DNA from: Burkholderia sp. BCC0506
GTDB taxonomy: Bacteria > Pseudomonadota > Gammaproteobacteria > Burkholderiales > Burkholderiaceae
Length of the DNA: 64,000 bases
Reading direction: 5' to 3'
Assembly: GCF_902833145.1 (NCBI RefSeq)
Contig: NZ_CADFEN010000002.1
Span: 124,001 to 188,000 of the forward strand
This document shows, one piece after another, positions 4,587-57,625 of this stretch. The notes below the pieces were generated by a model. It saw nothing but the letters and a program-made list of their open reading frames with translations, was not told the origin of the DNA and ran no database searches. The translations under genes and the position numbers were made by a program. Positions within the stretch are counted from its first letter, which is position 1, and every line of letters starts with the position of its first letter.

Positions 4587-4600
4587 TAAGACCAGTCCGA
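4587..4600. promoter_or_regulatory. RcsB-like palindromic box
   Basis: TAAGACCAGTCCGA, in the divergent region between the TPR glycosyltransferase and the small membrane protein. Both half-sites fit the RcsB pattern TRVGA/TSYGM. A weaker copy, TAGTCCCAGTCCTA, lies at 4657-4670. Confidence 0.55.
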
Positions 4601-4693
4601 ATCGATCCGACCGTGCGATACGCCCCCGGTCTCGAACGCGTGTTTCGTCGCGTTCGTAGTCCCAGTCCTATTTTTGGGTTCGGAGACTGCCAA

Positions 4694-4779
4694 TAAGACC
4701 TGTCTGATAGAGATCGCGTGCGGCGATCTTTGTAATACGCAGTATTCCGGCCGACGTCGTTCGGCAACTATCAGACAGG
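4694..4779 (+). promoter_or_regulatory. Structured leader with nested inverted repeats and a palindromic box
   Basis: A box, TAAGACCTGTCTGA (4694-4707), overlaps the left arm of a perfect 12-bp inverted repeat: CCTGTCTGATAG at 4699-4710 against CTATCAGACAGG at 4768-4779. Enclosed are three further hairpins: AGATCGC/GCGATCT (4711-4717, 4723-4729), AATAC/GTATT (4734-4738, 4742-4746) and CCGA/TCGG (4751-4754, 4761-4764). As RNA this would be a four-way junction ending 11 bases before the ATG of the next gene and covering its ribosome-binding region. The function is unknown. Confidence 0.5.
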
Positions 4780-4790
4780 GAGTACTGACG

Positions 4791-5105
4791 ATGAGCGCAG
4801 CAGATTTTCTGGTGAAAGGCACCGTGATCGGAATGGTCGCAAGCGCGGCCACGGTCGGGATGGTCCATGTGGTGGTCGAGTTCGGCACGCGCTGGTCGTC
4901 GAGCGGCATGGTCGTGACGATGGCGACTGCCTTGCTGATGGCGATGCTGCTGCTCGTGCCGCCGCTCGTCACTGCCTGGCGCAACCGCGAGGATGTGGTC
5001 GATCCGTTCTACGAGCCGGCGGCATTGAAGCCGATGTTGCAGGGGCGGACGATCGGCATCGTCGTCGGCATCGTGTTCGGCATTTCGATCGTGACGGGGT
5101 GGTGA
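4791..5105 (+). CDS. Small integral membrane protein, unknown function
   Basis: A 104-residue protein with about three hydrophobic segments (roughly 8-30, 40-60 and 85-103) separated by a charged loop, TAWRNREDVVDPFYEP. I recognise no family. Start ATG 4791 sits after GGGAG and directly behind the branched leader. The downstream GT25 gene begins 2 bases after its stop, so the two are co-transcribed and probably translationally coupled. A role in membrane transfer of sugars or in anchoring the glycosyltransferase is possible, but nothing in the sequence proves it. The promoter region has up to three copies of the palindromic box, so it is a good candidate member of the regulon. Confidence 0.8.
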   Translation: MSAADFLVKGTVIGMVASAATVGMVHVVVEFGTRWSSSGMVVTMATALLMAMLLLVPPLVTAWRNREDVVDPFYEPAALKPMLQGRTIGIVVGIVFGISIVTGW

Positions 5106-5107
5106 CG

Positions 5108-5908
5108 ATGTCGATGCCCGTGACCGACCGAACCGATCCGGCCATGGCATTCGCCAGCGCTCCCTTGATCGATGCGCCGACCGTCTGCAAGACGCTTCGC
5201 GTGATCTCGCTGCGAGGCGAGTGTGGCCGCCGCGATGCGTTTCGCGCGAATAATCCGGCGCTCGCGTTCGAATTCGTCGATGCGATCGACGGCCGGGCGC
5301 TGTCGGATGACGATATCGCGCGAAGCGGCCTGTTCGCGCCGGCGTTGCCGTACACGCGCGGCGCGATCGGCATCGCGATGACCACGCATCGCCTGTGGAC
5401 CGACATCGCCGCAGGCAACGAACTGGTCACGATCGTCGAGGACGACGCGATCTTCCGCCCGGACTTCGACGAAACGGCGATGCAATTCCTCGCCGCGCAT
5501 GCCGGCCGCTACGACTTCGTCGCGTGGGGCTACAACTTCGATTCGATCCTGCGCGGCGCGATCTTCAACAGCCGCACGCCGGTGACGATGCGCTTCGACG
5601 AAGCGGCGCTCGCGCAGGCCGTCGACGATTTCCGCACCGACCGCGGCCCCGTGCTCGTGATGGACCTGCTCGAGTTCTACGGGATCTGCGCGTACACGAT
5701 CTCGCCGGCCGGTGCGCGCTTCCTGCTCGATCACTGCTTTCCGCTGCAACCGGAGACGCTGTTTTCGCACGGGCTCGGCCGCACGCTGCCGAACTACGGG
5801 ATCGACGTCGCGATGAACAAGTTCTATGGCGCGATGCGCAGCGTCGCTGCCTTTCCACCGCTCGCCGTGACGATGAACGCGCGCGAGACGTCGACGATTC
5901 AACGGTGA
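5108..5908 (+). CDS. Glycosyltransferase family 25 (LPS-type) protein
   Basis: The product is 266 residues. After a variable N-terminus the GT25 pattern begins with VISLRG (33-38). It continues with the ISL/FVDAIDG region, the GAIGIAMTTHRLW segment and the acidic metal-binding VTIVEDDA (EDD at 111-113). Family members move hexoses onto lipooligosaccharide or, in some lineages, onto protein. ATG 5108 is used because the upstream membrane-protein stop is at 5105; ATG 5114 is an alternative, and both lack a strong Shine-Dalgarno, consistent with coupling. With the two glycosyltransferases on the other strand it forms a divergent glycosylation locus beside the adhesins. Confidence 0.85.
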   Translation: MSMPVTDRTDPAMAFASAPLIDAPTVCKTLRVISLRGECGRRDAFRANNPALAFEFVDAIDGRALSDDDIARSGLFAPALPYTRGAIGIAMTTHRLWTDIAAGNELVTIVEDDAIFRPDFDETAMQFLAAHAGRYDFVAWGYNFDSILRGAIFNSRTPVTMRFDEAALAQAVDDFRTDRGPVLVMDLLEFYGICAYTISPAGARFLLDHCFPLQPETLFSHGLGRTLPNYGIDVAMNKFYGAMRSVAAFPPLAVTMNARETSTIQR

Positions 5909-5920
5909 CGTCATGCGGAA

Positions 5921-5934
5921 TAGGACCAGGCTGA
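5921..5934. promoter_or_regulatory. RcsB-like palindromic box
   Basis: TAGGACCAGGCTGA, 13 bp after the GT25 stop. The left half is perfect and the right half has one mismatch. No coding gene starts before 6443, so the target may be an untranslated transcript ending at the 6031 terminator. Confidence 0.4.
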
Positions 5935-6030
5935 TTGTGCCGATGCCGTATGCGCTTCGACAATGCGAAGGTCGGGCCGCTGCATGGTTTGCGCCCGATA
6001 CCTCGTATCCGAAGCGCAGCTTCGTTGGAC

Positions 6031-6063
6031 GCGCTGCCCGTTCGCCGGGCAGCGCATTTTTCT
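6031..6063 (+). terminator. Rho-independent terminator
   Basis: GCGCTGCCCG and CGGGCAGCGC (10 bp, short loop) followed by ATTTTTCT. It ends the glycosylation transcript or a short RNA starting near the 5921 box. Confidence 0.75.
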
Positions 6064-6121
6064 CCGCACGCGGCCGATGCGAACGGCGTTGCCTGCACGG
6101 CCCGGTCCGGATGGCAAGCGG

Positions 6122-6216
6122 TGAATGCCTTGCGGCGACCGGTGGGCTCGGTCGCATCTGCACCATTCGGGTCGCAGGTTGGGAGAACGATGCCTCATGC
6201 GAGCGCAGGGCATTCA
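6122..6216. repeat. Dispersed intergenic repeat, copy 1
   Basis: A 95-bp unit bounded by TGAATGCC and GGCATTCA. Its ends match a second copy at 57762-57861: 5' TGAATGCCTTGCGGCG against TGAATGCCTTGTGGCG, and 3' ATGCGAGCGCAGGGCATTCA against ATGCGAGCACAGGGCATTCA. The middle differs. This looks like a short mobile-type or REP-like intergenic element. The rest of 5935-6442 shows only the terminator and no gene. Confidence 0.6.
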
Positions 6217-6442
6217 TCGCTGTCCTTCCCTTCGTCTGTCGCCGTCGCCCCGCCGACGGCGTCGACGCTGCTCGGCAACGCGCGGCCGGCTCGAACGGTT
6301 CGCGCTTCAGGTCTGGCCGTGGCGCGATCGCGCGTGCGGCCTGTCAGGCACCGACCCGATCGGTTGCCCGCGGTGAAGCTGCCGCATCTCCTCCCGGCCG
6401 CCATCGCGCGCGGCATCTCCCTCCATCGATGAAGGAATCGTC

Positions 6443-7457: not shown

Positions 7458-7649
7458 ATGACAGATTCTTACGCAGACGAAGATCGGTATGTTCCGGTGC
7501 CGCATACCGCGGCCGACACGGCGCGCCTGCTTGCCGATCCGGCCATCAAGGCGGCATACGATGAGATGGCGGATGAGTTCGCTGCGCTCCGCGCACGACT
7601 TGAACAGAATCAGCCCAGTCCGATTGGTTGTAACGATTGTTCACGTTAA
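7458..7649 (+). pseudogene. Truncated HigA-type antitoxin (N-terminal part only)
   Basis: A 63-residue ORF with a very strong ribosome-binding site (AGGAGG 9 bases before the ATG). The segment LADPAIKAAYDEMADEFAAL matches the helical N-terminal extension found ahead of the HTH in HigA/XRE-type antitoxins. The HTH itself is missing: the frame runs into an unrelated tail, QPSPIGCNDCSR. No toxin gene lies beside it. I read it as a degenerate antitoxin, though a free-standing short protein cannot be excluded. Confidence 0.55.
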
Positions 7650-7746
7650 ATTGAACGAGTGTGGCGCCGGAACCGCTTCGGCGGCGGCCGTTGGGCCCGG
7701 CCGTCGTCATGCTATGTGTTTGATAGCACCTACTCCTAACGCTGCC

Positions 7747-7959
7747 TCATGCGAGCGCCGAGGCGCTTCCGGCCGCCACACATTTCTTGAGGACGTACTC
7801 GGCCTCGTAGCGTTCAACCAGGATCACCAGCCTCTCCAGTTCGTCACCCTGCGGCGTGCCTCGCGCCGGATCCAGATCGACGAGAGTGGATACCCCCTTG
7901 AGGGCGGCCTTGTAAGCGGCCTCGGTTCGAATCCGGTGAGTGTTCGCTTTGATAGTCAT
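7747..7959 (-). pseudogene. COG5499-like HigA antitoxin fragment
   Basis: 70 residues reading MTIKANTHRIRTEAAYKAAL, then GTPQGDELERLVILVERYE. This matches the N-terminal region of the HTH antitoxins that accompany HigB-type toxins. The usual HTH half, starting after a PIDPPDP-like linker, is absent and the frame ends in CVAAGSASALA. No intact toxin is found in 7960-8098. This is the second antitoxin remnant within 500 bp. Confidence 0.5.
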
Positions 7960-9088: not shown

Positions 9089-12070
9089 TCACCCCGCCGC
9101 ACGCCGCATGAGGATCTCGTTCGCGCTCTGTCGATAGCGCTCGAACTCCCGCGCGAACGCCGCCGCATCGCCCGCCAGCGCCAGCGCTTCCATCGACGCG
9201 CAGAGCCCTGAAATCTCCCGCTCGCCGATCATCGCGAACGCCCCGCGCATGCTGTGAATCTCCGAACGCGCGACCTTCAGATCACCGTCCTGCAAGGCCC
9301 GTGCGATCGTCGCGCTCGAGCGTCGCGTGGCATCGACGAGCACCGTGTGCAGGTCTTTCGGCAACGGGCCGGGCGCGCGCGCCGGTGCGGGCGGATACGT
9401 CGGCCGCCGCCACGTCCCCGCATATTTCGCGATCGCCTGTTCGAGCGATTTCAGCGACGTCGGCTTCGTGACGATCTCGTCGATACCCGCTTCCCACGCC
9501 AGCCGCAACTCGTCCGGTTCGGCATGCGCGGTTACCGCCAGGATCGGCTGCACGCGGCCGCGTTCGCGCAGCACGCGGGCGAACGCGTAGCCGTCGAGGC
9601 CCGGCATGTTGAGATCGGTGAGCACGACCGCGTAGTCGTGGCGGTCCACCAGATCGAGCGCATCGGCAACGTTCGACGCGATATCGGCCTGATAGCCGAG
9701 TACGTCCAGCTGATCGTGGACGAGCGAACGGTTGACCGGGTTGTCGTCGACGAACAGCACGCGTCCGTTCGGCGCATCCTCGCCCGACGGCGCCTGCGCG
9801 GCACCCGGCTGGCGGTCGAGCGGCAGCGGCAACGTGACGACGAAGGTCGAGCCGACGCCCGGCACGCTGTTCGCCTCGATGCGCCCGCCCATCGATTCCG
9901 CGAGCTTGTAGCTCAGCGCGAGGCCGATGCCCGTGCCGCCGAAGCGGCGCGCGATCGACTCGTCGGCCTGCGCGAATGGCTCGAACACGTGCGCGAGCTG
10001 ATCGGCCGTCATGCCGATGCCCGAATCGCTGACGCGGATCGTCACGGGCGTCGCGTCGCCGCCCGGGGCCGACACCGACAACGCCACCGCGCCGCGATCG
10101 GTGAACTTGATCGCGTTGCTGACCAGGTTCACGACGATCTGCCGCACGCGCATCGGGTCGCCGACATACGTATGCGTGACCGCCGGATCGACGTCGATGC
10201 GCAACGCGATGCCCTTCGCGCCGGCCACCGGCTCGAACAGGTCCGCGACGTCGCGCATCAGCTCGTCGATCCGGAAGCCGGTCGCCTCGAGCGTCATCCG
10301 GTCGGCCTCGATCTTCGTCATGTCGAGCACGTTGTTCAGCATGTCGAGCAGCATCCGCGCGGCCGACGTGACCGCATGCAGGCGCGGCTTCTGCCGGCTC
10401 GGGTCAGGTGCCTTGTCGAGCAGTTCGAGATTGCCGAGCATCGCGTTCAGCGGCGTGCGGATCTCGTGGCTGATCGTAGCGAGGAACGTCGACTTCGCTC
10501 GGTTCGCGCTATCGAGCGCGCGTTCAGCGTCGGCGCGCGTCGTGATGTCGGAGAAGCTGCACAGCAGCGCGTCCTTGCCCTTGTAGCGCACGCGGACGAA
10601 ATTGATGAGCAGGTCGCGCGTGCGCCCGTCGGAGAGCGTCACCGGCAGTTCGACGTCGAGCTGCACCGGCGACGCATCCGAGTGCTCGCGGTAGCGCGCC
10701 AGCAGCCGCTCGTGCAGCGGCGGGTCGCCGGCCTCGCGGTCGTACAGCTCGAGCATCCGGTTGCGCAGCAGCACCTGATGCGTGTCGGGGGACACGAGGC
10801 CGATGCCGAACGGTGCAGTCGCGATGATCGTGCGGCTCATCCGCTCGCTTTCGAACACGCGGCGCGAGCGGCGGAACAGCGGCGCGAACACGCGCAGGTC
10901 GAATGCGATCACGAGCGTCCACAGCACGATCAGGATGGTCGCGGTCGCACCGAATTCGCGCAGCATCGTTGACCAGATCGCCCGGGCGATCGTGCGCCAC
11001 GAATACGCATAGACGATCGCGTAGCCGGTATCCGAGATCCGGTCGGTAATCGTGAACACGCCGTGCCGGTAGCTTTCGTCGAAATGCACGAGGCCACGTC
11101 GCCACGTACCTTCGGCGAGCGCGTGCTTCATCAGCGCGGCGCCGTCCTCCGCATCGCCGGTGCGATCGGCGTCGAGCACCACGCGGCCGTGTTCGTCGAC
11201 CAGCATCGCGACGGCGTCCTCGGGCGCGTGCCTGAGCCGGTCGGCGATCACGTCGACGTCGAAATCGCTGACGAAGGTCATGAAATGCTTTTGCCCGTCG
11301 AACGCGGGCTCGACCAGACGGAACACCGTCTTGCCGGTCAGCGGATCGATCGCCGGCGCCTGCCACGCGATCCGGCGCGACAGACGCCAGTAGCGTGCGA
11401 TGGCCGGATCGGACCAGTCGGCCACATCGAACGCGAGGTGTTGGATCAGCGCATGCGTGTCGGGCACGCCGATGCGCGTGAGCACGTCCGGATACGGCAT
11501 CGACGGCGGGGGCGTGATCGCGATCACGTTGCGATCGGGGCTGTACGCGTAGCCCCGCACGGCGCGCCCGGTCTGCCGTTCGGCGGCAGCAACTGAAATC
11601 GTTTGTCGCTCCATCAACTGCACGTAGCGATCGGTTTCGTCGCTGGCCAGCGCATCGGGCGACGCGGCCAGGAAGATCTCGCTCACGCCGCGCATCGGCG
11701 CGAGCAGTACGTGACCGTCCTTGCGAAGCGCGTCGGATGCTTCGCGCGCATGCGGCGGATGACCGTTCCACAGCAGTTCGGCGTTGATCACCGCGCGGCG
11801 CATCGACGCCTGCTTCGCGTCCATTTCGAGTTGCACGAGCGCCTTGTGCGTGATGAACAGGTCGCGCCGCTCAGCGACGTAGTCGCGCACCGAGCCGACC
11901 AGCAGGATGCCGGCCGTGATCAGGATCACGAGCGACAGCACGACCGCGCCGCCGTACAGCGTGAAGCGCTGATAGCGGTTCAGCAGGCTCAGGTCGCGCG
12001 CGTCGTCGTCGATCGACGCGAACGGCGCGCTGGCATCCGTGTGGGACGCGAAGAGGTGGCGGATGGGCAT
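9089..12070 (-). CDS. Hybrid sensor histidine kinase with receiver and Hpt domains (kinase 1)
   Basis: A 993-residue inner-membrane phosphorelay protein. TM1 is about 38-61, the periplasmic sensor about 62-370, TM2 about 374-396, and a PAS-like region about 410-510. HisKA has ISHEIRTPLNAML (His535). The HATPase has the N box SNAIKF and G boxes near 682 and 711. The receiver has VVLTDLNMPG (Asp819) and the Hpt domain EIHSMRGAF (His939). All phosphotransfer residues are present. Architecture resembles RcsC/BvgS-type relays, and the paralogue at 38184 has the same order. It is divergent from adhesin 1. Its promoter has a box at 12256-12269 and a -10 GATAAT at 12200-12195. Likely partners are the RcsB-like regulators, by inference. 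The Shine-Dalgarno is weak. Confidence 0.92.
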   Translation of the reverse strand: MPIRHLFASHTDASAPFASIDDDARDLSLLNRYQRFTLYGGAVVLSLVILITAGILLVGSVRDYVAERRDLFITHKALVQLEMDAKQASMRRAVINAELLWNGHPPHAREASDALRKDGHVLLAPMRGVSEIFLAASPDALASDETDRYVQLMERQTISVAAAERQTGRAVRGYAYSPDRNVIAITPPPSMPYPDVLTRIGVPDTHALIQHLAFDVADWSDPAIARYWRLSRRIAWQAPAIDPLTGKTVFRLVEPAFDGQKHFMTFVSDFDVDVIADRLRHAPEDAVAMLVDEHGRVVLDADRTGDAEDGAALMKHALAEGTWRRGLVHFDESYRHGVFTITDRISDTGYAIVYAYSWRTIARAIWSTMLREFGATATILIVLWTLVIAFDLRVFAPLFRRSRRVFESERMSRTIIATAPFGIGLVSPDTHQVLLRNRMLELYDREAGDPPLHERLLARYREHSDASPVQLDVELPVTLSDGRTRDLLINFVRVRYKGKDALLCSFSDITTRADAERALDSANRAKSTFLATISHEIRTPLNAMLGNLELLDKAPDPSRQKPRLHAVTSAARMLLDMLNNVLDMTKIEADRMTLEATGFRIDELMRDVADLFEPVAGAKGIALRIDVDPAVTHTYVGDPMRVRQIVVNLVSNAIKFTDRGAVALSVSAPGGDATPVTIRVSDSGIGMTADQLAHVFEPFAQADESIARRFGGTGIGLALSYKLAESMGGRIEANSVPGVGSTFVVTLPLPLDRQPGAAQAPSGEDAPNGRVLFVDDNPVNRSLVHDQLDVLGYQADIASNVADALDLVDRHDYAVVLTDLNMPGLDGYAFARVLRERGRVQPILAVTAHAEPDELRLAWEAGIDEIVTKPTSLKSLEQAIAKYAGTWRRPTYPPAPARAPGPLPKDLHTVLVDATRRSSATIARALQDGDLKVARSEIHSMRGAFAMIGEREISGLCASMEALALAGDAAAFAREFERYRQSANEILMRRAAG

Positions 12071-12194: not shown

Positions 12195-12269
12195 ATTATC
12201 GGGATAGCAGGCGGGTCTGTATGTAGGGCAGTCCGAAACACTCGCGCGCGATGGATAGGACCAGTCCTA
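12195..12269 (-). promoter_or_regulatory. Two-box promoter of kinase 1
   Basis: Strong box TAGGACCAGTCCTA at 12256-12269, a perfect palindrome with flanks A and T. A weaker box lies at 12224-12237, read TTCGGACTGCCCTA on the minus strand. The -10 GATAAT lies at 12200-12195. Box-to-box distance is 32 bp, and the -10 begins 56 bases beyond the strong box, as at the other three promoters of this set. Confidence 0.6.
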
Positions 12270-12393: not shown

Positions 12394-12468
12394 TAGGACT
12401 GGGCCTACGAAATAAGTCGCCGCACGTCCAGCCGTCTGATTATCGAAATGACAGGCGATCAATACATT
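12394..12468 (+). promoter_or_regulatory. Two-box promoter of adhesin 1
   Basis: Strong box TAGGACTGGGCCTA at 12394-12407, second box GTCCAGCCGTCTGA at 12426-12439 and -10 TACATT at 12463-12468. The predicted start of transcription is near 12475, giving a leader of about 50 nt. Spacing is identical to kinase 1, regulator 2 and adhesin 2. The remaining part of 12071-12523 shows no gene. Confidence 0.6.
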
Positions 12469-12523: not shown

Positions 12524-15500
12524 ATGAACAAGAGTTATCGCACCGTCTGGAACGCGACGACGGGTACATGGACGGCGGCAGCCGAAACGGCGCGGATGCG
12601 CACGAAATCGAAGTCGAATTCCGCGATGCGGTCGTCGGTGACGGCGGCGGTGGCGGTCATGGCCGGCGTGGGCGGCGGTGCGATGTCGGCCGATGCGAAT
12701 GCGCAGGCGGCGAACGGCAATGGTTCGCTGACGCTGTGCACGCCGGGCGGTAGCGGTGGCTATTACGGGTCGGTTTTCGGCGGCGGATCCATCTCGGGTA
12801 CGCGATTGACCGGGTGTGGGTCCGCGGTCTCCACGTTCAGGCTCAGCGAAGGTCACGTAAGGTCGTTTCAGTTGTATAACAACAGCGCTGCGAACGGCTC
12901 TGGCGTAGGTCAGGCAAGTGCCGCGACCGAGGCCGGCATCAGCGGCACCGTCGACGGGCACCTCTTCTTGCTGGGCGGCTCCGGCGTGCACCTTCGTGGC
13001 CCGGTGGACGTCGACAGCAACGTCAACATGACGAACCACCGCATCAACAACCTCCAGGCGGGTGTGGCGGGTACGGATGCGGTCAACGTGAACCAGTTGA
13101 ATGCGGCGATTGCGGCGGCCAATACGACGAATCCGTACGTGGTGACCAACACGGGTACGTACGCGGCCGCGACACCGGCGCGCGCAGGCAACAGCGCGAC
13201 CGCGATCGGCGCCAACGCTGACGCGACGGGTATCTTGGCCGTGGCGCTCGGCGGCAACACTGTGGCGAGCAATCAGAACGCTACGGCTATCGGCACGTTG
13301 GCGCGTGCGACCGGGTCGGAAAGCGTCGCGGTGGGTACAAGCGCAAATGCCGCGGGTGCCAACGCATCTGCCCTCGGGCGGGCCGCTGCCGCCCAGGCCG
13401 CTAATACGACTGCCGTGGGCACCGTTTCCGCCGCTACCGCGGATGGCGCAACCGCGCTCGGCTATTCGGCGAGCGCCGTCGGCACGAATGCCATTGCCGT
13501 CGGTCGTCAGGCGAGCACCAGCGGCACGTACGGCACCGCGATCGGCTATCAGGCGAAGGGCACCACCAACGCCGTCGGGATGGGTGTGCTCGCGGATGCG
13601 AGCGGGAGTGCCAGCGTCGCGCTGGGCAATCGCGCAAGCAGCGCGGGCACGAACGCGGTTGCTATCGGCAGCGGAGCGGTGGCCGGCAATGCGAACTCGG
13701 TCGCACTGGGAACCGGGTCGGTAACGAATCGGGACAACTCGGTTTCCGTTGGGTCGGCGAGCGTTCAACGGCAGATCACGAACGTGGCCGTCGGCACGCA
13801 GGGCACGGACGCGGTCAACGTGAACCAGTTGAATGCGGCGATTGCCGGCGTGAAGACGCCGGACAATCCCTATGTGCGTATCAACAGTACCGGCGCGGCT
13901 GCAGCGGCTGCGGGCGGCAATGCCATCGCCGTTGGACAAAACGCGAGTGCGCAGGGTAATCAGTCGATTGCAATGGGCACCAACGCATTGACGAACGCCA
14001 CGAGCTCCGGTTCGGTTGCGTTGGGTTCGAACGCGTCCGCCACGGGCGACTGGAGCGTCGCTTTGGGCGGTGCGACAGGAACTGGCCGAGGCGCGGTTGC
14101 AACCGGAACCCACGCGGTAGCGCTGGGGACGCTTTCCCAGGCGACTGCCACGGACTCCGTCGCGTTGGGTTATGGGTCGGTGGCCGACCGCAGTAATACG
14201 GTATCTGTCGGTGCGGGCGGGCCGAATGGCACGCGACAAATCGTCAACGTCGGTGCGGGTACGCAGGCAACCGATGCGGTGAACGTCAGCCAGTTGAAGG
14301 GCGTGACGGATTCGCTCGGCGGTGGCACGACGATCGGTGCGGACGGCAGCATCACGAAGCCGACGTACAACGTGGGCGGCACGGATTACCACAACGTCGG
14401 CGACGCCCTCGATGCATTGAACAAGAACAGCAGCGGAAATCCGCTTGCGGTGGCATACGACAGCGCGGCGAAGGACACCGTGACGCTGGGCGGCGCGGGC
14501 GCCACGACGCCGGTCGCCCTGAAGAACGTGGCCGACGCGAAGGACGACCACGATGCGCTGAACCTCGGTCAGCTGAAGAACGCCGGCCTGGTCGGCGACG
14601 ACGGCTCGGGCAACCTGACGTCGCTCGCCGTGACGTACGACGACGCGAAGAAGGACAGCGTGACGCTGGGCGGCACGGGCGCGACCACACCGGTGGCGCT
14701 GCACAACGTGGCGGACGGCGTGCTGTCGGCGACGAGCAAGGATGCCGTGAATGGCTCGCAACTGTTCGCGACGAACACGCGCGTCGGTGATCTGGAGGAC
14801 TCGCTGTCGAAGGGCGGCGTGATCGATCCGGTGACGGGTGAATCGCTGGCCGTGGTGTACGACAGCAATGCGAAGGACACCGTGACGCTGAAGGGCACGA
14901 ATGGCACGACGCTGTCGAACGTGAAGGCCGGTGTTGCGGACATGGACGCGGTGAACGTGTCGCAGTTGAAGGGTTCGGGTCTGATCGGAGACGACGGCAA
15001 GTCGATCGCCGCGGTGACGTACGACCGTAATGCGGACGGCACGCCGAACTATGGCACGGTGACGCTGGGCAACGGCAATGGCCCGACGCAAGTCAAGAAC
15101 GTCGCGGACGCGACGGACGACGGCGACGCACTGAACCTCGGTCAGTTGAAGGACGCGGGCCTGGTCGGCGACGACGGTGCAGGCAAGCTGACGTCGGCTG
15201 CGGTGACGTACGACAAGAACGCGGATGGCACGATCAACCACGACAAGGCGACACTGGCGGGCACGAGCGGCACGACGCTGTCGAACGTGAAGGCAGGCGT
15301 GGCCGACATGGACGCGGTGAACGTGTCGCAGCTGAAGGGTTCGGGCCTGATCGGAGACGACGGCAAGTCGATCGCCGCGGTGACGTACGACCGTAACGCG
15401 GACGGCACGCCGAACTACGGCACGGTGACGCTGGGCAACGGCAATGGCCCGACGCAGGTCAAGAATGTCGCGGATGCAAAGGACGACCACGACGCGCTGA

Positions 15501-44084: not shown

Positions 44085-44423
44085 AACGAAACCATTGCCG
44101 CGCTCGCGGCGCTCGCGCATGAATCGCGCCTCGCGGTCTTTCGCGCGCTCGTGCAGGCCGGGCCGCAAGGCATGCCGGCCGGCCAGATCGCCACGCTGCT
44201 CGCCGTGCCGCCGTCGTCGCTGTCCTTTCACCTGAAAGAACTCGCGCATGCGCGGCTCGTGACGAGCCACCAGGACGGCCGCTTCGTGTTCTATTGCGCG
44301 AACTTCGACACGATGAACGGGCTGCTGGGCTATCTCACGGAAAACTGTTGCGGCGGCAATCCGTGCTCGCCGGTGTCCGGCTGTTCGCCTTCCGGAAAGA
44401 CCAATCGCCCCCGTCAATCCTGA
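44076..44423 (+). CDS. arsR: ArsR-family arsenite-responsive repressor
   Basis: A 115-residue winged-helix repressor: ALAHESRLAVFRALVQAG, then the recognition region AVPPSSLSFHLKELAHARLV. As(III)-binding cysteines are probably in the C-terminal CCGGNPC cluster (Cys91, 92 and 97) rather than in the helix 3 site of the plasmid-type repressors. It heads the ars operon, and arsC follows 22 bp later. ATG 44076 is chosen because METNE matches the family and it sits in the operator; the longer upstream frame would be read through the operator. Confidence 0.93.
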   Translation: METNETIAALAALAHESRLAVFRALVQAGPQGMPAGQIATLLAVPPSSLSFHLKELAHARLVTSHQDGRFVFYCANFDTMNGLLGYLTENCCGGNPCSPVSGCSPSGKTNRPRQS

Positions 44424-44445
44424 CGCGCATTCGCGCGACCGCCCT

Positions 44446-44940: not shown

Positions 44941-45003
44941 TCGCTGACAAGGCGATGTGCGCGAAACGCGCGCCGCCTCGACTTCAAGACCGACCCGCGC
45001 CCG

Positions 45004-46077
45004 ATGCCTACGTCCAACGTCACGCCGCCCGACACGGCGGTCGCCAAATCCGCCATCAACTTCTTCGAACGCTATCTGACCGTCTGGGTGGCGCTGTGCA
45101 TCGTCGTGGGCATGGCGCTCGGCCAGGCGCTGCCGGCCCTGTTTCAGGCAATTGGCCGGATGGCCTACGCCCAGGTCAATCTGCCGGTCGGATTGCTGAT
45201 CTGGGTGATGATCATCCCGATGCTGGTCAAGGTCGATTTCGGCGCATTGCATGAAGTGCGTCAGCATGTCAAAGGCATCGGCGTCACGCTCGTCGTGAAC
45301 TGGCTCGTCAAGCCGTTCTCGATGGCGTTCCTCGGCTGGCTGTTCATCCGCCACCTGTTTGCACCGCTGCTGCCGGCGGACCAGATCGACAGCTATATCG
45401 CCGGGCTGATCCTGCTGGCGGCCGCGCCGTGCACGGCGATGGTATTCGTGTGGAGCCGGCTCACGGGCGGCGATCCGCTGTTCACGCTGTCGCAGGTCGC
45501 GCTGAACGACAGCATCATGGTGATCGCGTTCGCGCCGCTGGTCGGCCTGCTGCTGGGCATGTCGGCCATCACGGTGCCGTGGGCGACGTTGCTCACGTCG
45601 GTTGCGCTCTACATCGTCATTCCGGTGATCCTCGCGCAGATGCTGCGCAAGCGATTGCTCGCGAACGGCCAGGCGGCGTTCGATGCCGCGATGACGAAGA
45701 TCGGCCCGTGGTCGATCGCCGCGCTGCTGGCCACGCTGGTGCTGTTGTTTGCGTTTCAGGGTGAAGCGATCCTGAAGCAGCCGCTGGTGATCGCGCTGCT
45801 CGCGGTGCCGATCCTGATCCAGGTGTTTTTCAATTCCGCGCTCGCGTACTGGCTCAATCGCGCGGTAGGCGAACAGCACAGCGTGGCCTGCCCTTCGGCG
45901 CTGATCGGCGCATCCAACTTTTTCGAACTGGCGGTTGCGGCCGCGATCAGCCTGTTCGGTTTTCATTCTGGCGCAGCGCTGGCCACCGTCGTCGGCGTGC
46001 TGATCGAAGTGCCGGTGATGTTGCTGGTCGTGCGCATCGTCAACCGGTCGAAGGGCTGGTACGAGTGCCGGGCTTGA
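45004..46077 (+). CDS. acr3: Arsenite efflux transporter, ACR3 family
   Basis: A 357-residue, ten-helix inner-membrane carrier. The conserved cysteine lies in [18 protein letters not shown] (Cys143), with [10 protein letters not shown] near the end. It extrudes arsenite produced by ArsC, probably in exchange for protons. It starts 63 bp after arsC, and arsH follows 20 bp after its stop. Confidence 0.94.
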
Positions 46078-46097
46078 GATCACGAAACCCTCTACCC

Positions 46098-46820
46098 ATG
46101 ACCGACTATCTGAACGATCTGCCGCAACTCGACGCCACGCTGTTTCGCGTGCCGGACGTCGCGCAACTGCGGCCTGCGGCGCCATCGACGCGTCCGCCGC
46201 GGTTCCTGCTGCTGTACGGCTCGCTGCGCGAGCGTTCGTTCAGCCGTCTGCTGGTCGAGGAAGCCGCGCGCCTGCTCGCGGCGATGGGCGCCGAGGTGCG
46301 GGTGTTCAATCCGAGCGGCCTGCCGCTGCCCGATGACGCGCCGGAGAGCCACCCGAAAGTGGTCGAGCTGCGCGAGCTCGTAATGTGGTCGGAAGGCATG
46401 GTGTGGTGTTCGCCGGAACGGCATGGCGCGATGACCGGGATCATGAAAGCGCAGATCGACTGGATTCCGCTGTCGGTCGGCGCCGTCCGGCCGACGCAGG
46501 GCAAGACGCTCGCGGTGATGCAGGTGAGCGGCGGCTCGCAGTCGTTCAACGCGGTGAACCAGATGCGCGTGCTCGGGCGCTGGATGCGCATGCTGACCAT
46601 CCCGAACCAGTCGTCGGTGGCCAAGGCGTTCATGGAATTCGACGAGGCGGGGCGGATGAAGCCGTCCGCGTATTTCGATCGCGTGGTGGACGTGATGGAA
46701 GAACTGGTGAAGTTCACGCTGCTCACGCGCGACGTTGGCCCCTATCTGGTCGACCGGTATAGCGAGCGCAAGGAAAGCGCGGAAGAACTTTCGAAACGCG
46801 TCAATCAAGCGCGTATCTAG
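46098..46820 (+). CDS. arsH: ArsH NADPH-dependent FMN reductase (organoarsenical oxidase)
   Basis: A 240-residue flavoprotein. The FMN phosphate-binding loop is [16 protein letters not shown]. The conserved [20 protein letters not shown] and [19 protein letters not shown] segments are diagnostic of ArsH. The enzyme oxidises trivalent organoarsenicals to less toxic pentavalent forms. ATG 46098 ([11 protein letters not shown]) is the family start. Confidence 0.93.
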
Positions 46821-46931: not shown

Positions 46932-47384
46932 ATGACACATATTCGTCAAGCGATCGAATCCGATCTGGCCTCGATCGAGGCGCTGCTTCGGGCCAGCGGT
47001 TTGCCGACCGAGGGCGTCGCCGTTTATCTGCCGCATTTCGTTGTTGCCGACGCGGCATCTGGCATCGTCGGATGTGGCGGAATCGAGTTCCACGGATGTC
47101 ATGCGCTCATTCGTTCGATCGCTGTCGTCGAACACGCGCGTCGTGCCGGCGTCGGGCGGATGCTGGTGGCCCGTTTGCTCGCGGCATGCCGCGAGCGTGC
47201 CGTCCGGTCGGTCGGGTTGCTGACCACGACGGCGGAAGATTACTTCGCCGGGCAGGGTTTCGTCCGTATTGCCCGCGAAGATGTACCGGCACCGTTGTTG
47301 GCGTCCAGCCAGTTTCAGGGCGTCTGTCCGGGGTCGGCCGTCGCGATGCTGATGACGTGCGACGGCAAAATCAGACTCGACTGA
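46932..47384 (+). CDS. arsN2: ArsN2-type GNAT N-acetyltransferase
   Basis: 150 residues with a GNAT fold: IRSIAVVEHARRAGVGRMLV is the acetyl-CoA loop, and GLLTTTAEDYFAGQGF follows. These match the arsenic-resistance acetyltransferase ArsN2. Related ArsN1 acetylates arsinothricin or phosphinothricin; the ArsN2 substrate is less certain. AGGAG lies 7 bases before the ATG. A terminator follows and closes the operon. Confidence 0.85.
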   Translation: MTHIRQAIESDLASIEALLRASGLPTEGVAVYLPHFVVADAASGIVGCGGIEFHGCHALIRSIAVVEHARRAGVGRMLVARLLAACRERAVRSVGLLTTTAEDYFAGQGFVRIAREDVPAPLLASSQFQGVCPGSAVAMLMTCDGKIRLD

Positions 47385-47534: not shown

Positions 47535-48206
47535 ATGCAGCTCGACCGCCTGATCCCTGAAATCCTGTTCGGCTTCACGGGCCTGATCGGCATCATCAAC
47601 CCGTTCGGCATGGCGTTCGTGTTTCTCGAACGCACGCAGTCGCTGAGCGAAGCCGAGCGCGCGATCCTGTCGAAGCAGCTCGCGACGAACGTGTTCTTCA
47701 CGCTGCTCGTGATCTTCTTCGTCGGCGCGCCGGTGCTGAACTTCTTCGGGATCTCGATGGAGGCGCTGCGGATCGGCGGCGGCTTCGCGGTCGCGGTGGC
47801 CGGCTGGTCGATGCTGAATGCGCCGGACGTCCCGGCCGGCGGCGACGTGGCCGCGCACGGCGACGACTTGCAGAAGCTGATGTCGCGCGCGTTCTTTCCG
47901 CTGACGGTGCCGCTGACGATCGGCCCAGGCTCGATCGCGGCCGGCATCGCGCTGCATGCCAATCGCGCGCATACCGCGAGCGATTACCTGCTGTCGGGCG
48001 TCGTGTCGGTGGCGGTCGCGGCGCTCGTCGCGTTCGCGATCTGGCAGATCTACAGCCGCGCGACGACGCTCGCGCGTTATCTCGGCAGCGAAGGGACGAA
48101 GGTCGCGATGCGCGTGTCCGCATTCCTGCTGCTGTGCGTGGGCGTGCAGATCATGCTGACCGGGTTGGCCGCGTTCGTGCAGATGCTGGGCGGGCAGGCG
48201 GGGTGA
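47535..48206 (+). CDS. MarC-family integral membrane protein
   Basis: A 223-residue protein with six predicted helices. The hallmarks are GIINPFGMAFVFLERTQ near the N-terminus and FFPLTVPLTIGPGSIAAGI in the middle. Despite the historical name it is not proven to give multidrug resistance; the function is unknown. It is monocistronic, with its own GGAG site. Confidence 0.9.
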   Translation: MQLDRLIPEILFGFTGLIGIINPFGMAFVFLERTQSLSEAERAILSKQLATNVFFTLLVIFFVGAPVLNFFGISMEALRIGGGFAVAVAGWSMLNAPDVPAGGDVAAHGDDLQKLMSRAFFPLTVPLTIGPGSIAAGIALHANRAHTASDYLLSGVVSVAVAALVAFAIWQIYSRATTLARYLGSEGTKVAMRVSAFLLLCVGVQIMLTGLAAFVQMLGGQAG

Positions 48207-48313
48207 CGGATGGCATAGGCGCCGACCGTTCGTGCATGAAGTGTTTGCTCGTCTACAACTGAGTAAGGTGATAAAAGTGGTGCGTTATTGCATCAATTTT
48301 GATGGGGGAGACA

Positions 48314-48520
48314 ATGCGAACCACGGTCACTATCGACGACGATCTCTACACGAAGGCCCTCCAAATGGCCGAGCCCGGAATGGATAAGGCGGACTTGTTC
48401 AGGGAGACAATCAAGACGTTCGTACGTGTCCAGGCCGCCAAACGCCTGGCAGCACTGGGCGGATCCATGCCCGGCATGGCAGATATTCCGCGACGTCGCC
48501 AGGAACCGGAATCGCAATGA
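48314..48520 (+). CDS. vapB: VapB-type antitoxin
   Basis: 68 residues: [20 protein letters not shown] is the DNA-binding beta-strand and helix of VapB (DUF2191-like), and [21 protein letters not shown] is the toxin-wrapping helix. A GGGGGAG ribosome site is present. It overlaps vapC by 4 bp (ATGA). Confidence 0.88.
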
Positions 48521-48893
48521 ATGTGTTGATTGACACGTCAGTCTGGGTTGATCACTTTCGAAACAGAAATCGGACACTTTTCGAGTTGCTTGCGCTGGAT
48601 GCCGTGCTGATGCATCCGATGGTGCTGGGTGAACTCGCTTGCGGGACGGCGCCGGCGCCACGACTGCGAACGCTGAACGACCTCGGATTGCTTCAGGAAT
48701 GCAATCAGGCCAGCGTGCCTGAGGTAATGGCATTCGTGGAGCGCGAGAAGCTCTACGGGATGGGGGGCTCGCCGATCTGACCTTGTTGGCGTCCATGTTG
48801 ATCACGCCGGGGGCGCGCTTCTGGACCCTGGATCGTCGTCTTGCAGCGTTGGCGGATCGTTTCTCGGTCGAATTCCGTTCGACTTCAAAGTGA
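48517..48893 (+). pseudogene. vapC: VapC PIN-domain toxin, frameshifted in a G6 run
   Basis: The first frame, [18 protein letters not shown] to REKLYGMGGSPI, ends at 48780. The next frame continues LADLTLLASMLITPGARFW and TLDRRLAALADRFSV to 48893. All four PIN acidic residues are present across the two frames (Asp6, the Glu in LGELACG, and Asp in LADLT and TLDRRL). The break falls in GGGGGG at 48762-48767: one more G restores a 125-residue toxin. The run could be a slippage switch, a neutralising mutation or a sequencing error. Confidence 0.85.
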
Positions 48894-48940
48894 GCTAAGG
48901 ACGGCATGCGCCGGCGTCGGCCGCAGGAAAGGAATCGGAA

Positions 48941-48954
48941 TAGAACAGGGCCTA
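48941..48954. promoter_or_regulatory. RcsB-like palindromic box
   Basis: TAGAACAGGGCCTA in the 58-bp gap between the vapC end and the channel stop. The right half and C..G centre are kept. There is no start codon nearby to be controlled, so its role is unclear. Confidence 0.35.
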
Positions 48955-49788
48955 CTCCGGTCGTCGTGGCGCAGCAGCGTCAATTGGCTCGGGCGGCGGA
49001 ACCGCCGCGCCGCAGTTCGGGCAGCAGCGTGTATCCGTATCAGCATTCGGGCGCTTGCGCTCCATCGCCGATGCAACCAGCTCAGCGCCCATGATCCCGG
49101 TCGGAAACGCGATGATCCCGTAGCCGAGCAGGATCGCGCACGACGTGATCAGCCGGCCGAGCGGCGTGACGGGCGTCAGGTCGCCATAGCCGGTCGTGCT
49201 CATCGTCACGGCCGCCCAGTAGACGCCCACCGGAATGCTCGTGATCCCGTGCTCCGGCCCTTCGACGAGAAAGATCACGGTGCCGAGAATCACGACGAGC
49301 ACGAACATCCCGCCGATGAACACGAAGATCTTGCGTCGCGCGCGCGTGAGCGCCCGGATCAGCATCTGCCCTTCCTCGAGATAGATCGACAGCCCGAGGA
49401 TGCGGAACACGCGCAGCAGCCGCAGCAGCCGCACGTCGATCAGCGCGTGCAGGCCGGGGAAGAAGAACGCGAGATAGGTCGGCAGCACCGACACGAGATC
49501 GACGATGCCGAAGAAGCTGCGCGCATACGCGGCCGGTTTCTTCGCGGTGCAGAGGCGCAGCAGGTACTCGGCGGAAAACAGCAGCGTGAACGCCCATTCG
49601 GCCGCGTAGAGCGCGTGACCGTATTGCGCGTGCAGTTCCTGCACGCTGTCGGCCATCACGACGAGCACGCTCGCGACGATGAGCGCGAGCACCGCGATGT
49701 CGAGCTTGCGCAGGAACGACGGGCGGCGCGCGACATGCGTGACGGCATCGCGCGCCGCATCGAGGGAGGACTGGATCGGCGAAATCAT
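48952..49788 (-). CDS. Voltage-gated potassium-type ion channel
   Basis: A 278-residue six-helix channel. S1 is about 28-45; S4 has regularly spaced arginines (DVRLLRLLRVFRILG); the pore loop has the selectivity filter TMSTTGYGDLTPV; S6 follows. The cytoplasmic tail ends in a small zinc-ribbon-like CCPNCGA. It is a KvAP/Kv-like prokaryotic channel. The ATG at 49788 follows 36 bp after a perfect palindromic box. A decayed duplicate of its 5' end, including the box, lies at 38000. Confidence 0.92.
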   Translation of the reverse strand: MISPIQSSLDAARDAVTHVARRPSFLRKLDIAVLALIVASVLVVMADSVQELHAQYGHALYAAEWAFTLLFSAEYLLRLCTAKKPAAYARSFFGIVDLVSVLPTYLAFFFPGLHALIDVRLLRLLRVFRILGLSIYLEEGQMLIRALTRARRKIFVFIGGMFVLVVILGTVIFLVEGPEHGITSIPVGVYWAAVTMSTTGYGDLTPVTPLGRLITSCAILLGYGIIAFPTGIMGAELVASAMERKRPNADTDTRCCPNCGAAVPPPEPIDAAAPRRPE

Positions 49789-49824: not shown

Positions 49825-49838
49825 TCGGACCTGTCCGA
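49825..49838. promoter_or_regulatory. RcsB-like palindromic box upstream of the channel gene
   Basis: TCGGACCTGTCCGA is a perfect palindrome (with A/T flanks, 16 bp). It begins 36 bp before the start codon, so it must overlap or follow the core promoter and could repress. It is conserved in the 38000 duplicate. Confidence 0.55.
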
Positions 49839-52702: not shown

Positions 52703-52718
52703 ACGCACCGCACCGATC

Positions 52719-56362: not shown

Positions 56363-56385
56363 CGTGACTGGATCGTTTTCGCTCA

Positions 56386-56568
56386 TGCCACGACGCCTTC
56401 CTTTCACCGGTCGCGCCGCATACGCATACGGCGTGACGGCTTCCGTCTCCTGGCCGATGCGCACGCCGTCGCGCGAGTCGAACACGATCGCGCTGACGCC
56501 TTCGACGAGGCCTGTCGGGGAAGTGTTCGTGTACAGGCCGGTCGCGCTCGACGCGCCGATGTAACCCG
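56386..56568 (-). pseudogene. Coding remnant of an unrecognised protein
   Basis: The minus strand reads GYIGASSATGLYTNTSPTG, then SAIVFDSRDGVRIGQETEAV and PYAYAARPVKGRRRGMSEN, with strongly GC3-biased codons. There is no start, and the frame runs into the antisense of the TolC-like gene. It looks like the C-terminal end of a real protein cut off beside the tlpA-like gene. I do not know the family. Confidence 0.4.
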
Positions 56569-56598
56569 GCGTCGCCGCTTCCCGTCGGCCGCCGGCCG

Positions 56599-57408
56599 TT
56601 ACTGGCCGAAGCGCTGTGTCACGGCGTCCTTCAGCCGCGCGGCGCTCAGCTCGCCCATGTGCGATTCGACGAGTTCGCCTTTCGCGTTGAAGAACAACGT
56701 GGTCGGCAGCCCGCGCGAACCATACGCGTGCATCGCGTGCAGCGACGGATCGAGCAGCACGTGATCGAAGCGCAGGCCCTGCTGTTCGAGGAACGCGCGC
56801 ACGGCTTGCGCATTCTCGCCCTGGTTGAGCATCAGCACCGTGATGCCCGGATGGTCGCGCTGCGCCTGCTCGAGGATCGGCATCTCGCGGCGGCACGGCG
56901 CGCACCACGTCGCCCACAGGTTCACGATGACGGGCTTGCCGACGAAGCCCGCCGGCAACACGGGCGTCGCATCGAGCGCCTGGAGCGGCATCGCGGCAAG
57001 CGGCGGCGCGCCACGCTGCAACGTCGCCAACGTGCCTTGCGCGATACCCCACGCACCGAGGCCCGCGACGATACCGGCCAGCACCGGCCGACGCAGCGCG
57101 GGCAAACGGCGCAAGCGCCAGCCGGCGAACGCCAGCGCGGCCGCGATACCGATGCGCGCATCGAAGCCGCCATCGCCGAGCGCGACGATCGCGCGCGGCG
57201 ACGCCGCATAGTCGGGCCACCATTGCGCGACATAGCCGACCCGTGCGGCAATCAATCCGAACAGCAGCACGTCGAGGATCAGGCTCGACGCGCTCTTGTG
57301 ATGCCCGTCCGGCGGACGGCGCTGGATGAAGCGCGCGACGAGCCACGCCAGCAGCGCGGCGACGGCTACCGCGACGACGCGGATCGAGAAGGGACCGATG
57401 CTCAGCAT
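56599..57408 (-). CDS. TlpA-like thiol-disulfide reductase with membrane domain
   Basis: 269 residues. An N-terminal part of about three or four hydrophobic segments (roughly 5-25, 42-64, 85-97 and 108-125) resembles the prolipoprotein-transferase-like domain often fused to TlpA. A periplasmic thioredoxin fold follows, with VNLWATWCAPCRREMP (Cys169, Cys172) and the cis-Pro in SRGLPTTLF. It likely keeps periplasmic cysteines reduced. ATG 57408 is chosen: the longer frame to 57858 runs through intergenic repeats. Confidence 0.85.
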   Translation of the reverse strand: MLSIGPFSIRVVAVAVAALLAWLVARFIQRRPPDGHHKSASSLILDVLLFGLIAARVGYVAQWWPDYAASPRAIVALGDGGFDARIGIAAALAFAGWRLRRLPALRRPVLAGIVAGLGAWGIAQGTLATLQRGAPPLAAMPLQALDATPVLPAGFVGKPVIVNLWATWCAPCRREMPILEQAQRDHPGITVLMLNQGENAQAVRAFLEQQGLRFDHVLLDPSLHAMHAYGSRGLPTTLFFNAKGELVESHMGELSAARLKDAVTQRFGQ

Positions 57409-57611
57409 GAGATTGGCGGAATGGATTGTGATCGAGCGGGGCAGGAGAGTGAATGGTCCGCCGCGGCGATCGGGCCGTCGACGGTCGTGCGGCGTTTCGA
57501 CCGGTTGCCGCGTATGGGGGTTCCCGCCGGGAACGTAACGGCGTGTTGCGGATCGCGACAGGCGCACGGGCAACCCAGGCGCGCGTGATGTTCGCGCCAG
57601 CGGGCAGCGAA

Positions 57612-57625
57612 TCAGACCGGTCTGA
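57612..57625. promoter_or_regulatory. RcsB-like palindromic box
   Basis: TCAGACCGGTCTGA, perfect (16 bp with A/T flanks). It is followed about 100 bp later by a plus-strand terminator but no recognised gene, so a small RNA or a 28-codon ORF starting at 57623 are candidates. Confidence 0.5.

Follow-up and report, generated by a model that had tools for sequence, protein, structure and literature searches.

What does a short palindrome, repeated between the genes of an adhesin cluster in Burkholderia sp. BCC0506, control, and which protein binds it? The question is raised by a stretch of 64,000 nucleotides (hereafter the window), which corresponds to positions 124001-188000 of contig 2 of a 7.29-Mb genome in 45 contigs (labelled G000) and encodes trimeric autotransporter adhesins (TAAs), two hybrid sensor kinases (HK1 and HK2) and two RcsB-like response regulators (RR1 and RR2). 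The palindrome is real and concentrated locally. With a probability of roughly 0.8, it would serve as the operator of RcsB-family regulators that control a regulon comprising the adhesin cluster and a family of structured RNAs. From the sequence we infer the identity of the binder, activation rather than repression, phosphorylation by the kinases, and the production and action of the RNAs.

Clustering of the palindrome

An earlier note on this DNA had listed 15 copies of the palindrome and taken them to mark a local regulon. All 15 places carry sequences as described there: seven are exact matches to TMRGACNNGTCYKA (4587, 4694, 12256, 24770, 36690, 49825 and 57612), five have one mismatch (5921, 12394, 28486, 42376 and 42812) and three have two (4657, 38000 and 48941). 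Three further sites, 7610 and 47371 with one mismatch each and 28435 with two, were absent from that list.

Exact matches number 12 in the whole genome, and 7 of these lie within the window (binomial p 3e-12, uncorrected for the pattern having been derived from this same window). At up to one mismatch, 14 of the 64 matches in the genome fall in the window, as compared with 0.56 expected if they were evenly spread. Thus, the genome-wide scan bore out the local clustering, but not a general enrichment, as the one-mismatch pattern is rarer in the whole genome than its reversed control (64 vs 128 matches); the signal is therefore local, and the cluster is what needs explaining. At up to two mismatches, the 28 matches in the window come near the noise (shuffles, mean 18.0, standard deviation 4.5), and 7 of the 14 two-mismatch sites fall inside genes. 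For this reason 4657, 38000 and 48941 were set aside, while 28435 was retained because of its -10 hexamer and its 51-bp pairing with a neighbouring site.

The pattern is not as common inside genes as between them. All 14 window sites at up to one mismatch are intergenic, although intergenic DNA makes up 21 % of the window by the gene calls made here; 57612 lies outside the likely gene but inside a longer open reading frame (ORF) reading, and the earlier claim that every copy lies outside genes needs a small correction at 48941, where the copy and the stop codon of the channel gene overlap. The same was found in pooled segments, consisting of the window, one adjoining stretch and 12 segments from 10 related genomes, all selected for holding the adhesin cluster, a structured RNA or an RcsB-like regulator. 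Here all 59 exact sites are intergenic, as compared with 10.8 expected, and so are 156 of the 160 at up to one mismatch, as compared with 29.6 expected. Among the five exact sites of the genome beyond the window, four are intergenic and one lies in a gene.

The palindrome also emerged from an unsupervised scan of intergenic DNA that was blind to the proposal and covered all 4096 six-base half-sites at 9 spacings. In the window, TAGGAC-2-GTCCTA ranked first (score 21.9, top null 9.4); in three of four relatives TCGGAC or TCAGAC with spacing 2 came first, and in the fourth (G025) TAGGAC-2 came fifth, behind a GC-rich palindrome in first place and a shifted form of the motif in second. The refined consensus is AA-TMRGAC-NN-GTCYKA-TT. 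The RcsB-like character of the half-sites, already proposed, was upheld, since TAGGAC-2-GTCCTA matches the outer parts of the RcsB box (TARGA/TCYTA on two 7-bp half-sites), the fit being degenerate at half-site position 2, where 33 % of 111 sites (described below) have A and 66 % have C.

The cluster recurs in the orthologous adhesin region of related genomes. Seven relatives carry an RR2 orthologue (78-97 % identity) adjoining an RR1, and crowding was assessed in five of them. Exact sites crowd in this region in all five, namely G022 (8 of 12), G034 (8 of 10), G019 (9 of 13), G003 (5 of 12 in 80 kb) and G025 (6 of 15 in 62 kb); the other two, G002 and G028, also have sites, their region being divided among contigs.

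Promoter geometry and conserved candidate targets

If the palindrome controls transcription, its position relative to promoters should be informative. The sites and the principal genes are arranged along the window as follows, with offsets giving the distance from the 14-mer to a -10-like hexamer.

4587-4600, minus strand: exact site, towards the TPR gene 2868-4439 (minus); TAAAGT at offset 23
4694-4707, plus strand: exact site, towards 4791-5105 and the GT25 glycosyltransferase gene 5099-5908 (plus); TGTAAT at offset 23
5921-5934, plus strand: one-mismatch site before a predicted non-coding transcript; GACAAT at offset 24
7610-7623, plus strand: one-mismatch site before RNA copy B; TAAATT at offset 23
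9089-12070, minus strand: hybrid sensor kinase HK1 (HisKA, HATPase, REC, Hpt), BCAM0218-like by gene order
12256-12269, no strand assigned: exact site between HK1 and adhesin 1
12394-12407, no strand assigned: one-mismatch site, 138 bp from the 12256 site
12524-21973, plus strand: trimeric autotransporter adhesin 1 (TAA1)
23087-23806, plus strand: RR1, RcsB-like response regulator (PF00072 and PF00196)
23942-24634, minus strand: RR2, RcsB-like response regulator (PF00072 and PF00196)
24770-24783, minus strand: exact site upstream of RR2, without a -10 at offset 23
25038-28388, minus strand: trimeric autotransporter adhesin 2 (TAA2), with ribosome-binding region AGGAGTAGG complementary to copy B RNA
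28435-28448, minus strand: two-mismatch site, promoter-proximal to TAA2; GACAAA at offset 23
28486-28499, minus strand: one-mismatch site, 51 bp upstream of the 28435 site
28946-32155, minus strand: third YadA-like adhesin gene
36690-36703, plus strand: exact site, towards the isochorismatase-fold gene 36862-37473; GATACT at offset 23
38184-41216, minus strand: hybrid sensor kinase HK2, BCAM0227-like by gene order
41358-42149, minus strand: winged-helix regulator, BCAM0228-like by gene order
42376-42389, minus strand: one-mismatch site, towards the BCAM0228-like gene and HK2; CACAAT at offset 23
42812-42825, plus strand: one-mismatch site preceding the unknown gene 42958-43968; the window sequence has no clear -10 at offset 23
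47371-47384, plus strand: one-mismatch site, towards the MarC-family gene 47535-48206; GACAAT at offset 23
49825-49838, minus strand: exact site at the ion-channel gene 48952-49788; TACACT at offset 23
57612-57625, plus strand: exact site before a predicted non-coding transcript; AACAAT at offset 23

Sites were oriented to the neighbouring gene start, both ways where genes diverge, which gave 193 site-gene pairs and, after removal of pairs at least 65 % alike downstream, 111 non-redundant oriented sites. By a simple weighting based on the sigma-70 consensus, 34 of the 111 sites have a strong -10-like hexamer that begins at a distance of exactly 23 bp from the 14-mer, as compared with a mean of 1.41 and a maximum of 6 sites at the other 49 offsets, while permuted half-site pseudo-sites had one at this offset in 3 of 207 cases, no more than at other offsets. 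When the hexamer is set at -12 to -7, the palindrome occupies approximately -49 to -36, with its centre near -42.5, abutting the -35 element. Activator sites usually have this layout, that of a class II site abutting -35 at a fixed distance from -10, which counts against a repressor operator, and the palindrome is very probably an activator site.

The paired sites could nevertheless be read otherwise, as a repressor operator or as the target of an RcsB-like protein acting with a partner, in the manner of RcsB-RcsA, rather than as a simple class II activator site. Several sites are indeed paired (12256/12394 and 28435/28486), with one of the pair often lacking a -10 at offset 23, and one repressing RcsB box is known to lie in the -10 and -35 regions; RcsB sites are, however, usually found upstream of -35 (excerpts of PMC5651002), and such a reading is considered unlikely. 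Pairs 51 bp apart, as at 28435/28486, recur near adhesin genes in relatives. In the HK1/TAA1 pair neither site has a good -10 at offset 23, and TATATA is found at offset 25 after 12256. The 48941 copy is degenerate in the window, but two relatives, G022 (C2) and G013 (C6), have a well-formed motif where their channel gene ends, with GAAACT at offset 23, a -10 that the window copy lacks; a 204-aa ORF near 48941 (48293-48907) is partly conserved.

Which genes may be controlled was assessed by the presence of a site at up to one mismatch within 400 bp upstream of the orthologue, in those relatives in which the gene start could be placed. A site is conserved in every such relative for the TPR gene and the 4791/GT25 operon (5 of 5 each), the kinase HK1 (6 of 6), the unknown gene 42958 and the BCAM0228-like gene with HK2 (7 of 7 each) and the channel (8 of 8), and in most of them for the MarC gene (6 of 7) and an LGT-like gene (4 of 7). 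For TAA1, 9 of 10 comparisons gave a site, but at least three of these matches are other adhesin genes, and the TAA2 comparison gave one cross-match only. Genes without a site in the window also lack one in relatives (RR1 0 of 10, OmpA 0 of 7, LeuA 0 of 4, AKR 0 of 6, ABC2 0 of 2), with the exception of PPIC, which has distant sites in 3 of 7. The message of the channel gene may be leaderless, because its ATG follows the -10 by no more than 8 nt and the spacing of 50 bp between site and start is kept in 6 of 8 relatives.

Two proposed targets did not withstand this comparison. Autoregulation of RR2 was rejected, its upstream site being conserved in 0 of 7 relatives, and so was control of the LysR/hydrolase pair through 36690 (0 of 3); the latter site may be real but private, given its -10 at offset 23. 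Among other features of the window, arsenic-resistance-type genes at 43872-46820 (ArsR-like, phosphatase-like, SBF transporter and FMN reductase) were not found in the G022 and G025 stretches, and a short methyltransferase fragment of 105 aa (59142-59459) adjoins a HipA-like gene.

A candidate family of structured RNAs

Behind some of the sites lies a candidate RNA family that is undescribed in Rfam, restricted to Burkholderia and supported by covariation. It was missed by the earlier note, is probably the most novel part of the locus and raises the interest of the finding most. Site 7610 is followed by approximately 180 bp conserved in four genomes in which the surroundings are not conserved, and this segment (copy B) folds well below shuffled sequences (z -4.2; opposite strand, z -3.5). 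Related copies lie downstream of sites 5921 (copy A) and 57612 (copy C). An unknown membrane protein had been among the proposed targets, but the -10 of site 57612 faces away from the membrane gene, towards the RNA.

5970-6062, plus strand: predicted short transcript with terminator-like hairpin and T run at approximately 6031-6062, start inferred from the -10; similar across 5 aligned genomes
6102-6218, plus strand: structured RNA copy A (covariance model 86.0 bits, E 5e-20 for the genome)
7654-7790, plus strand: structured RNA copy B, free-standing small RNA candidate (91.1 bits; the model spans 7654-7770, the remainder is by alignment)
57661-57742, plus strand: predicted short transcript with terminator-like hairpin and T run, start inferred from the -10
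57742-57863, plus strand: structured RNA copy C (102.5 bits, E 1.3e-24 for the genome)
G000:C2:123445-123556 (L142:19445-19556), minus strand: fourth structured RNA copy, just left of the window; one-mismatch site 129 bp upstream, TATGCT at offset 23

The alignment of 24 copies supports a closing helix around two hairpins, with 95.8 % of cells paired. Both sides had changed in 13 of 23 pairs, a number reached by 18 of 500 shuffles, and the covariation score was 0.509 as compared with 0.260 for shuffles, none of the 500 reaching either 95.8 % paired or 0.509; as the structure was predicted from the same alignment, these covariation counts lean towards it. Structures slid along the alignment gave at most 45.7 % paired and a covariation of at most 0.125. 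G-U pairs place the RNA on the strand read by the motif promoters.

In the genome of the window, a search with the covariance model gave four strong matches with E below 1e-14, which all fall within C2:123445-181863; two more, with E 0.02 and 0.07, were treated as noise. A search of 61 genomes, with stricter filters that may lose weak matches, gave 75 matches in 30 of them, namely the own genome and 29 of 36 Burkholderia relatives, at 0 to 6 copies per Burkholderia genome; none was found in the 24 genomes from other genera of the order. Rfam 15 gave no match in the window at the gathering score, and permissive searches gave only sub-threshold ones around the copies, among them RF00519 at 57681-57751 (E 0.033, 21.8 bits vs a cut-off of 41) and ncS037 (15.1 vs 112). 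A resemblance of one segment to a ribozyme sequence was dropped, as the Rfam searches returned no ribozyme.

Since the covariance model holds no upstream motif, the number of copies preceded by the palindrome is an independent test, apart from the shared ancestry of the copies. Within up to 300 bp upstream, 56 of the 75 copies carry the motif at up to one mismatch and 63 at up to two, whereas 150 permuted half-sites gave on average 0.87 and 8.1 copies, respectively. One permuted half-site reached 50 copies at up to one mismatch, and it is almost certainly the near-synonym TCRGAM (tested on five example sites); at up to two mismatches the highest control reached 61. Read in the direction of the RNA, 50 of the 56 motif-bearing copies have a strong -10 at an offset of exactly 23, and none of the first 46 examined had one there in the opposite direction. 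Furthermore, a motif-bearing copy is present in 22 of the 31 genomes with RR1/RR2 or with RR3, a third RcsB-like regulator introduced below, as compared with none of the six without (G006, G009, G017, G029, G032 and G033; Fisher p 0.002, kinship uncorrected).

An alternative is that the RNA elements and palindromes spread together as one mobile or repeated unit, for which regulation is secondary. The variable copy number is in keeping with this, as are two near-identical copies in G005 (L170:5645-5757, plus, and L170:11927-12039, minus), which are inverted approximately 6 kb apart with the same motif upstream and suggest duplication of a whole unit. However, the distance between site and RNA is not the same in all classes (44, about 130 and about 180), sites also precede many unrelated genes, and several RNA copies occupy orthologous places, which makes such spreading an improbable explanation of the whole.

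The RNAs do not all stand in the same relation to their promoters. Copy B begins beside the predicted transcription start, while copies A and C sit behind a terminator-like hairpin, so that the motif-driven product there may be a short leader RNA, with read-through into the element. Copy B carries a conserved CUACUCCU at approximately 7730 (alignment, 10 genomes), and its CCUACUCCU is perfectly complementary to AGGAGUAGG at the TAA2 ribosome-binding site. When the copy B loop was compared with 203 called gene starts, TAA2 had the longest perfect complement (9 nt) and ranked eighth by duplex energy; AGGAGTAGGN(2-8)ATG occurs at four places in the genome. Because part of the complementarity is common Shine-Dalgarno sequence, it is a lead only. 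That these genus-restricted three-helix small RNAs are a core output of RcsB-type control, with copy B limiting translation of the co-regulated TAA2, is a tentative proposal that may well prove wrong.

Candidate regulators and related systems

Which protein, then, would bind the palindrome? RR1 and RR2, encoded amid the sites, are RcsB-family proteins by sequence, each with a receiver and a LuxR/GerE DNA-binding domain. Their nearest solved structures are those of RcsB (E 1.5e-42 for RR1 and 6.4e-45 for RR2), followed by EvgA (9.1e-18 and 1.1e-17), and the recognition helix RSKKTISTQK is identical in both; RR2 shares 79-91 % identity with proteins from Burkholderia sp. Fux382, puraquae, metallica, anthina and territorii. 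The RcsB box is an inverted repeat of 7-bp half-sites in which GA is contacted by K180 and S184, and of 14 RcsB residues named as touching DNA or its backbone (excerpts of PMC5829831), 10 are identical in RR1 and RR2, including the base-contacting K180, the changes being K154 to R, T169 to N, S184 to T and K187 to A or S. Two RcsB-contacted bases map to the half-site GA, with G in 100 % and A in 77 % of the 111 sites, which had been selected at up to one mismatch. In the strict sense, the palindrome is nonetheless a candidate RcsB box only.

The earlier note had rightly placed two RcsB-like regulators with near-identical recognition helices in the middle of the set, but its assignment of the binder was too narrow, and two of its targets are doubtful. 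RR3 (G000:C2:220583) lies 33 kb beyond the window, adjoins a hybrid kinase near a two-partner secretion (TPS)-type adhesin gene and is present in 29 of the 37 Burkholderia genomes, the own included; G002 and G003 lack it and have RR1/RR2. Exclusive binding by RR1 and RR2, as homo- or heterodimers of a regulon private to the adhesin cluster, would agree with the richness in exact sites of the eight genomes that carry them (10-15, mean 12.4, vs 0-11, mean 4.6, in the 29 without). It is, however, made unlikely by G020, G013 and G005, which have no RcsB-like protein of more than 50 % identity to RR2 (best in G020, 49 %), carry RR3 and keep sites, in G020 at the MarC, channel and RNA genes, in G013 at the channel, MarC, LGT, TPR and RNA genes and in G005 at its RNA copies. 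Because sites persist where RR1 and RR2 are absent, RR3 is counted as a further candidate, and the binders are likely the RcsB-family regulators RR1, RR2 and RR3. G020 has no BCAM0228-like gene, and 60 kb of it gave no HK1, HK2 or TAA match above reporting limits. Given the persistence of sites in G020 and G013, the adhesin cluster, whose regulators would share the specificity of RR3, seems to have joined a region that RR3 already controlled.

Several observations made around these regulators deserve mention. A one-mismatch site, TCAGACGTGTACTA, lies at G000:C2:216580 (L144:8580) before the hybrid kinase gene L144:8733-11882 near RR3, and similar sites were found in G020 and G005. The TPS-type adhesin adjoining the RR3/HK3 pair (L144:17020-19950, minus) has GLUG repeats, and RcsB-like regulators here keep company with adhesins. 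A site TAAGACTTGTCCTA at G000:C4:35856 (L146:9856) lies approximately 160 bp before an RcsB-like regulator at C4:36030, and another paralogue, at C4:42456, contains a TGA in frame. As to the kinases, HK1 has an Hpt domain, and that of HK2 falls below the Pfam cut-off (21.2 vs 24.6 bits).

Two other regulators, the BCAM0228-like winged-helix protein and a LysR-type protein, are also encoded among the sites. Winged-helix regulators usually bind direct repeats, which counts against the former. The BCAM0228-like protein occurs in 8 of the 37 genomes, the same eight as RR1/RR2, as compared with 22 of 37 for the motif-RNA pair, and so cannot be the only binder; this distribution and the lack of a Pfam receiver domain (41358-42149) make it a poor candidate. 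For the LysR-type protein, the site at its gene is conserved in none of three relatives, and binding by either protein in place of the RcsB-family regulators is very improbable. In the literature, the counterpart of the BCAM0228-like protein is counted among response regulators, but for the window protein a partnership with the BCAM0227-like kinase is doubtful; the orthologue in G002 has an in-frame TAG.

A related arrangement was found through RR2 in Pseudomonas, where six loci, near relatives of one another, carry TAGGACNNGTCCTA, the centre of which varies, followed by TANTGT at offset 23 beside RcsB-like regulators, while two other Pseudomonas loci of the set (L044 and L046) lack the motif. 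Over the 28 scanned loci, 3 of 719 permuted patterns reached the motif count of 7. At L053, the sole locus family-searched, the downstream gene encodes a receiver-EAL protein and a neighbour encodes a hybrid kinase.

A number of findings weigh against control by RcsB-family regulators. The pattern was derived from the window, so that the window statistics are partly circular; the relatives and the RNA-copy test are better evidence, and the species compared are close relatives rather than independent samples. Nineteen of the 75 RNA copies have no site at up to one mismatch, including all four in genomes without RR1, RR2 and RR3 and all four of G004, which has RR3, and 9 of the 31 genomes with a regulator show no motif-bearing copy (four of them have no copy). 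In relatives no site precedes RR1 (0 of 10) or RR2 (0 of 7), and the site before the paralogue at C4:36030 is without the -10 geometry. At the level of contacts, S184, which touches bases in RcsB, is T in RR1 and RR2, and the third contacted base, an A, corresponds to a position at which 66 % of sites have C. Finally, the Pseudomonas proteins have Q for K180 although the motif is identical, and the DNA-contact argument is therefore loose.

Taken with these reservations, control by RcsB-family regulators would operate as follows. The hybrid kinases, one of them BCAM0227-like, would pass phosphate to the RcsB-like regulators, and these, as phosphorylated dimers, would occupy the 14-mer, which ends just short of -35 and is centred near -42.5, recruiting RNA polymerase to promoters with poor -35 elements. 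The regulon would include the adhesin operons, both hybrid kinases, the TPR gene, the glycosyltransferase gene, the ion channel, the MarC-family gene and the unknown gene, as well as the structured non-coding RNAs, which would rise together with the adhesins, kinases, and surface and channel genes and then tune translation. On the tentative proposal for copy B made above, one regulator would switch on both the adhesin TAA2 and an RNA that limits its translation, adding a second regulatory layer. The adhesin cluster of cystic-fibrosis-associated Burkholderia would thereby gain a concrete control element together with a list of targets. Probable promoters would be assigned to the locus of a sensor reported to perceive a quorum signal, and a candidate RNA family absent from Rfam is added. 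An RcsB-type operator with fixed promoter geometry outside the enterobacteria would also allow specificity to be compared across many natural paralogues.

In the enterobacterial RcsB consensus, the inner positions are A/T-rich, whereas those of the palindrome are C-NN-G; moreover, two or three paralogues are present here, and the kinases are one-piece hybrids with Hpt. The two systems are alike in the inverted repeat with GA, the site near -35, where RcsB sites usually lie, and the associated small RNA, which in enterobacteria is the RcsB-controlled RprA (excerpts of PMC5651002); no RprA match for the RNA family was returned by the Rfam searches.

The kinds and order of genes in the window match those of Burkholderia cenocepacia BCAM0218-BCAM0228, with two kinases, three adhesins in bicistronic operons, an outer-membrane protein and three regulators (excerpts of PMC3404963), the equivalence being by order and domains and not by strain sequence. 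BCAM0227 is reported as the receptor of the Burkholderia diffusible signal factor (BDSF; excerpts of PMC12838280). The excerpts of PMC3404963 describe no operator or RNA for this cluster, and the BCAM02 numbers had no match in PMC10175445. Literature searches, limited to excerpts, on RcsB with Burkholderia adhesins, the BCAM02xx adhesin cluster, BDSF and Burkholderia small RNAs likewise gave no description of the operator or the RNA, nor did a weak search for the motif letters, in which terms matched only in part.

The double-hairpin RNAs of Burkholderia (RF02278) are, similarly, multi-copy small RNAs with unpaired CU-rich stretches (excerpts of PMC5688073), whereas in the RNAs described here two or three inner hairpins are enclosed by a long closing helix. 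The window proteins that were scanned contain no EAL domain, and hence no receiver-EAL phosphodiesterase partner. The PvrSR/RcsCB-cupD system of Pseudomonas aeruginosa PA14, in which an RcsB-like regulator borne on a pathogenicity island governs adhesive fimbriae and core genes (excerpts of PMC3842833), shares with this locus the RcsB-like regulator, the hybrid kinases, the adhesive structures and an RcsB-like box, the adhesive structures being fimbriae in that system and trimeric autotransporters in the window.

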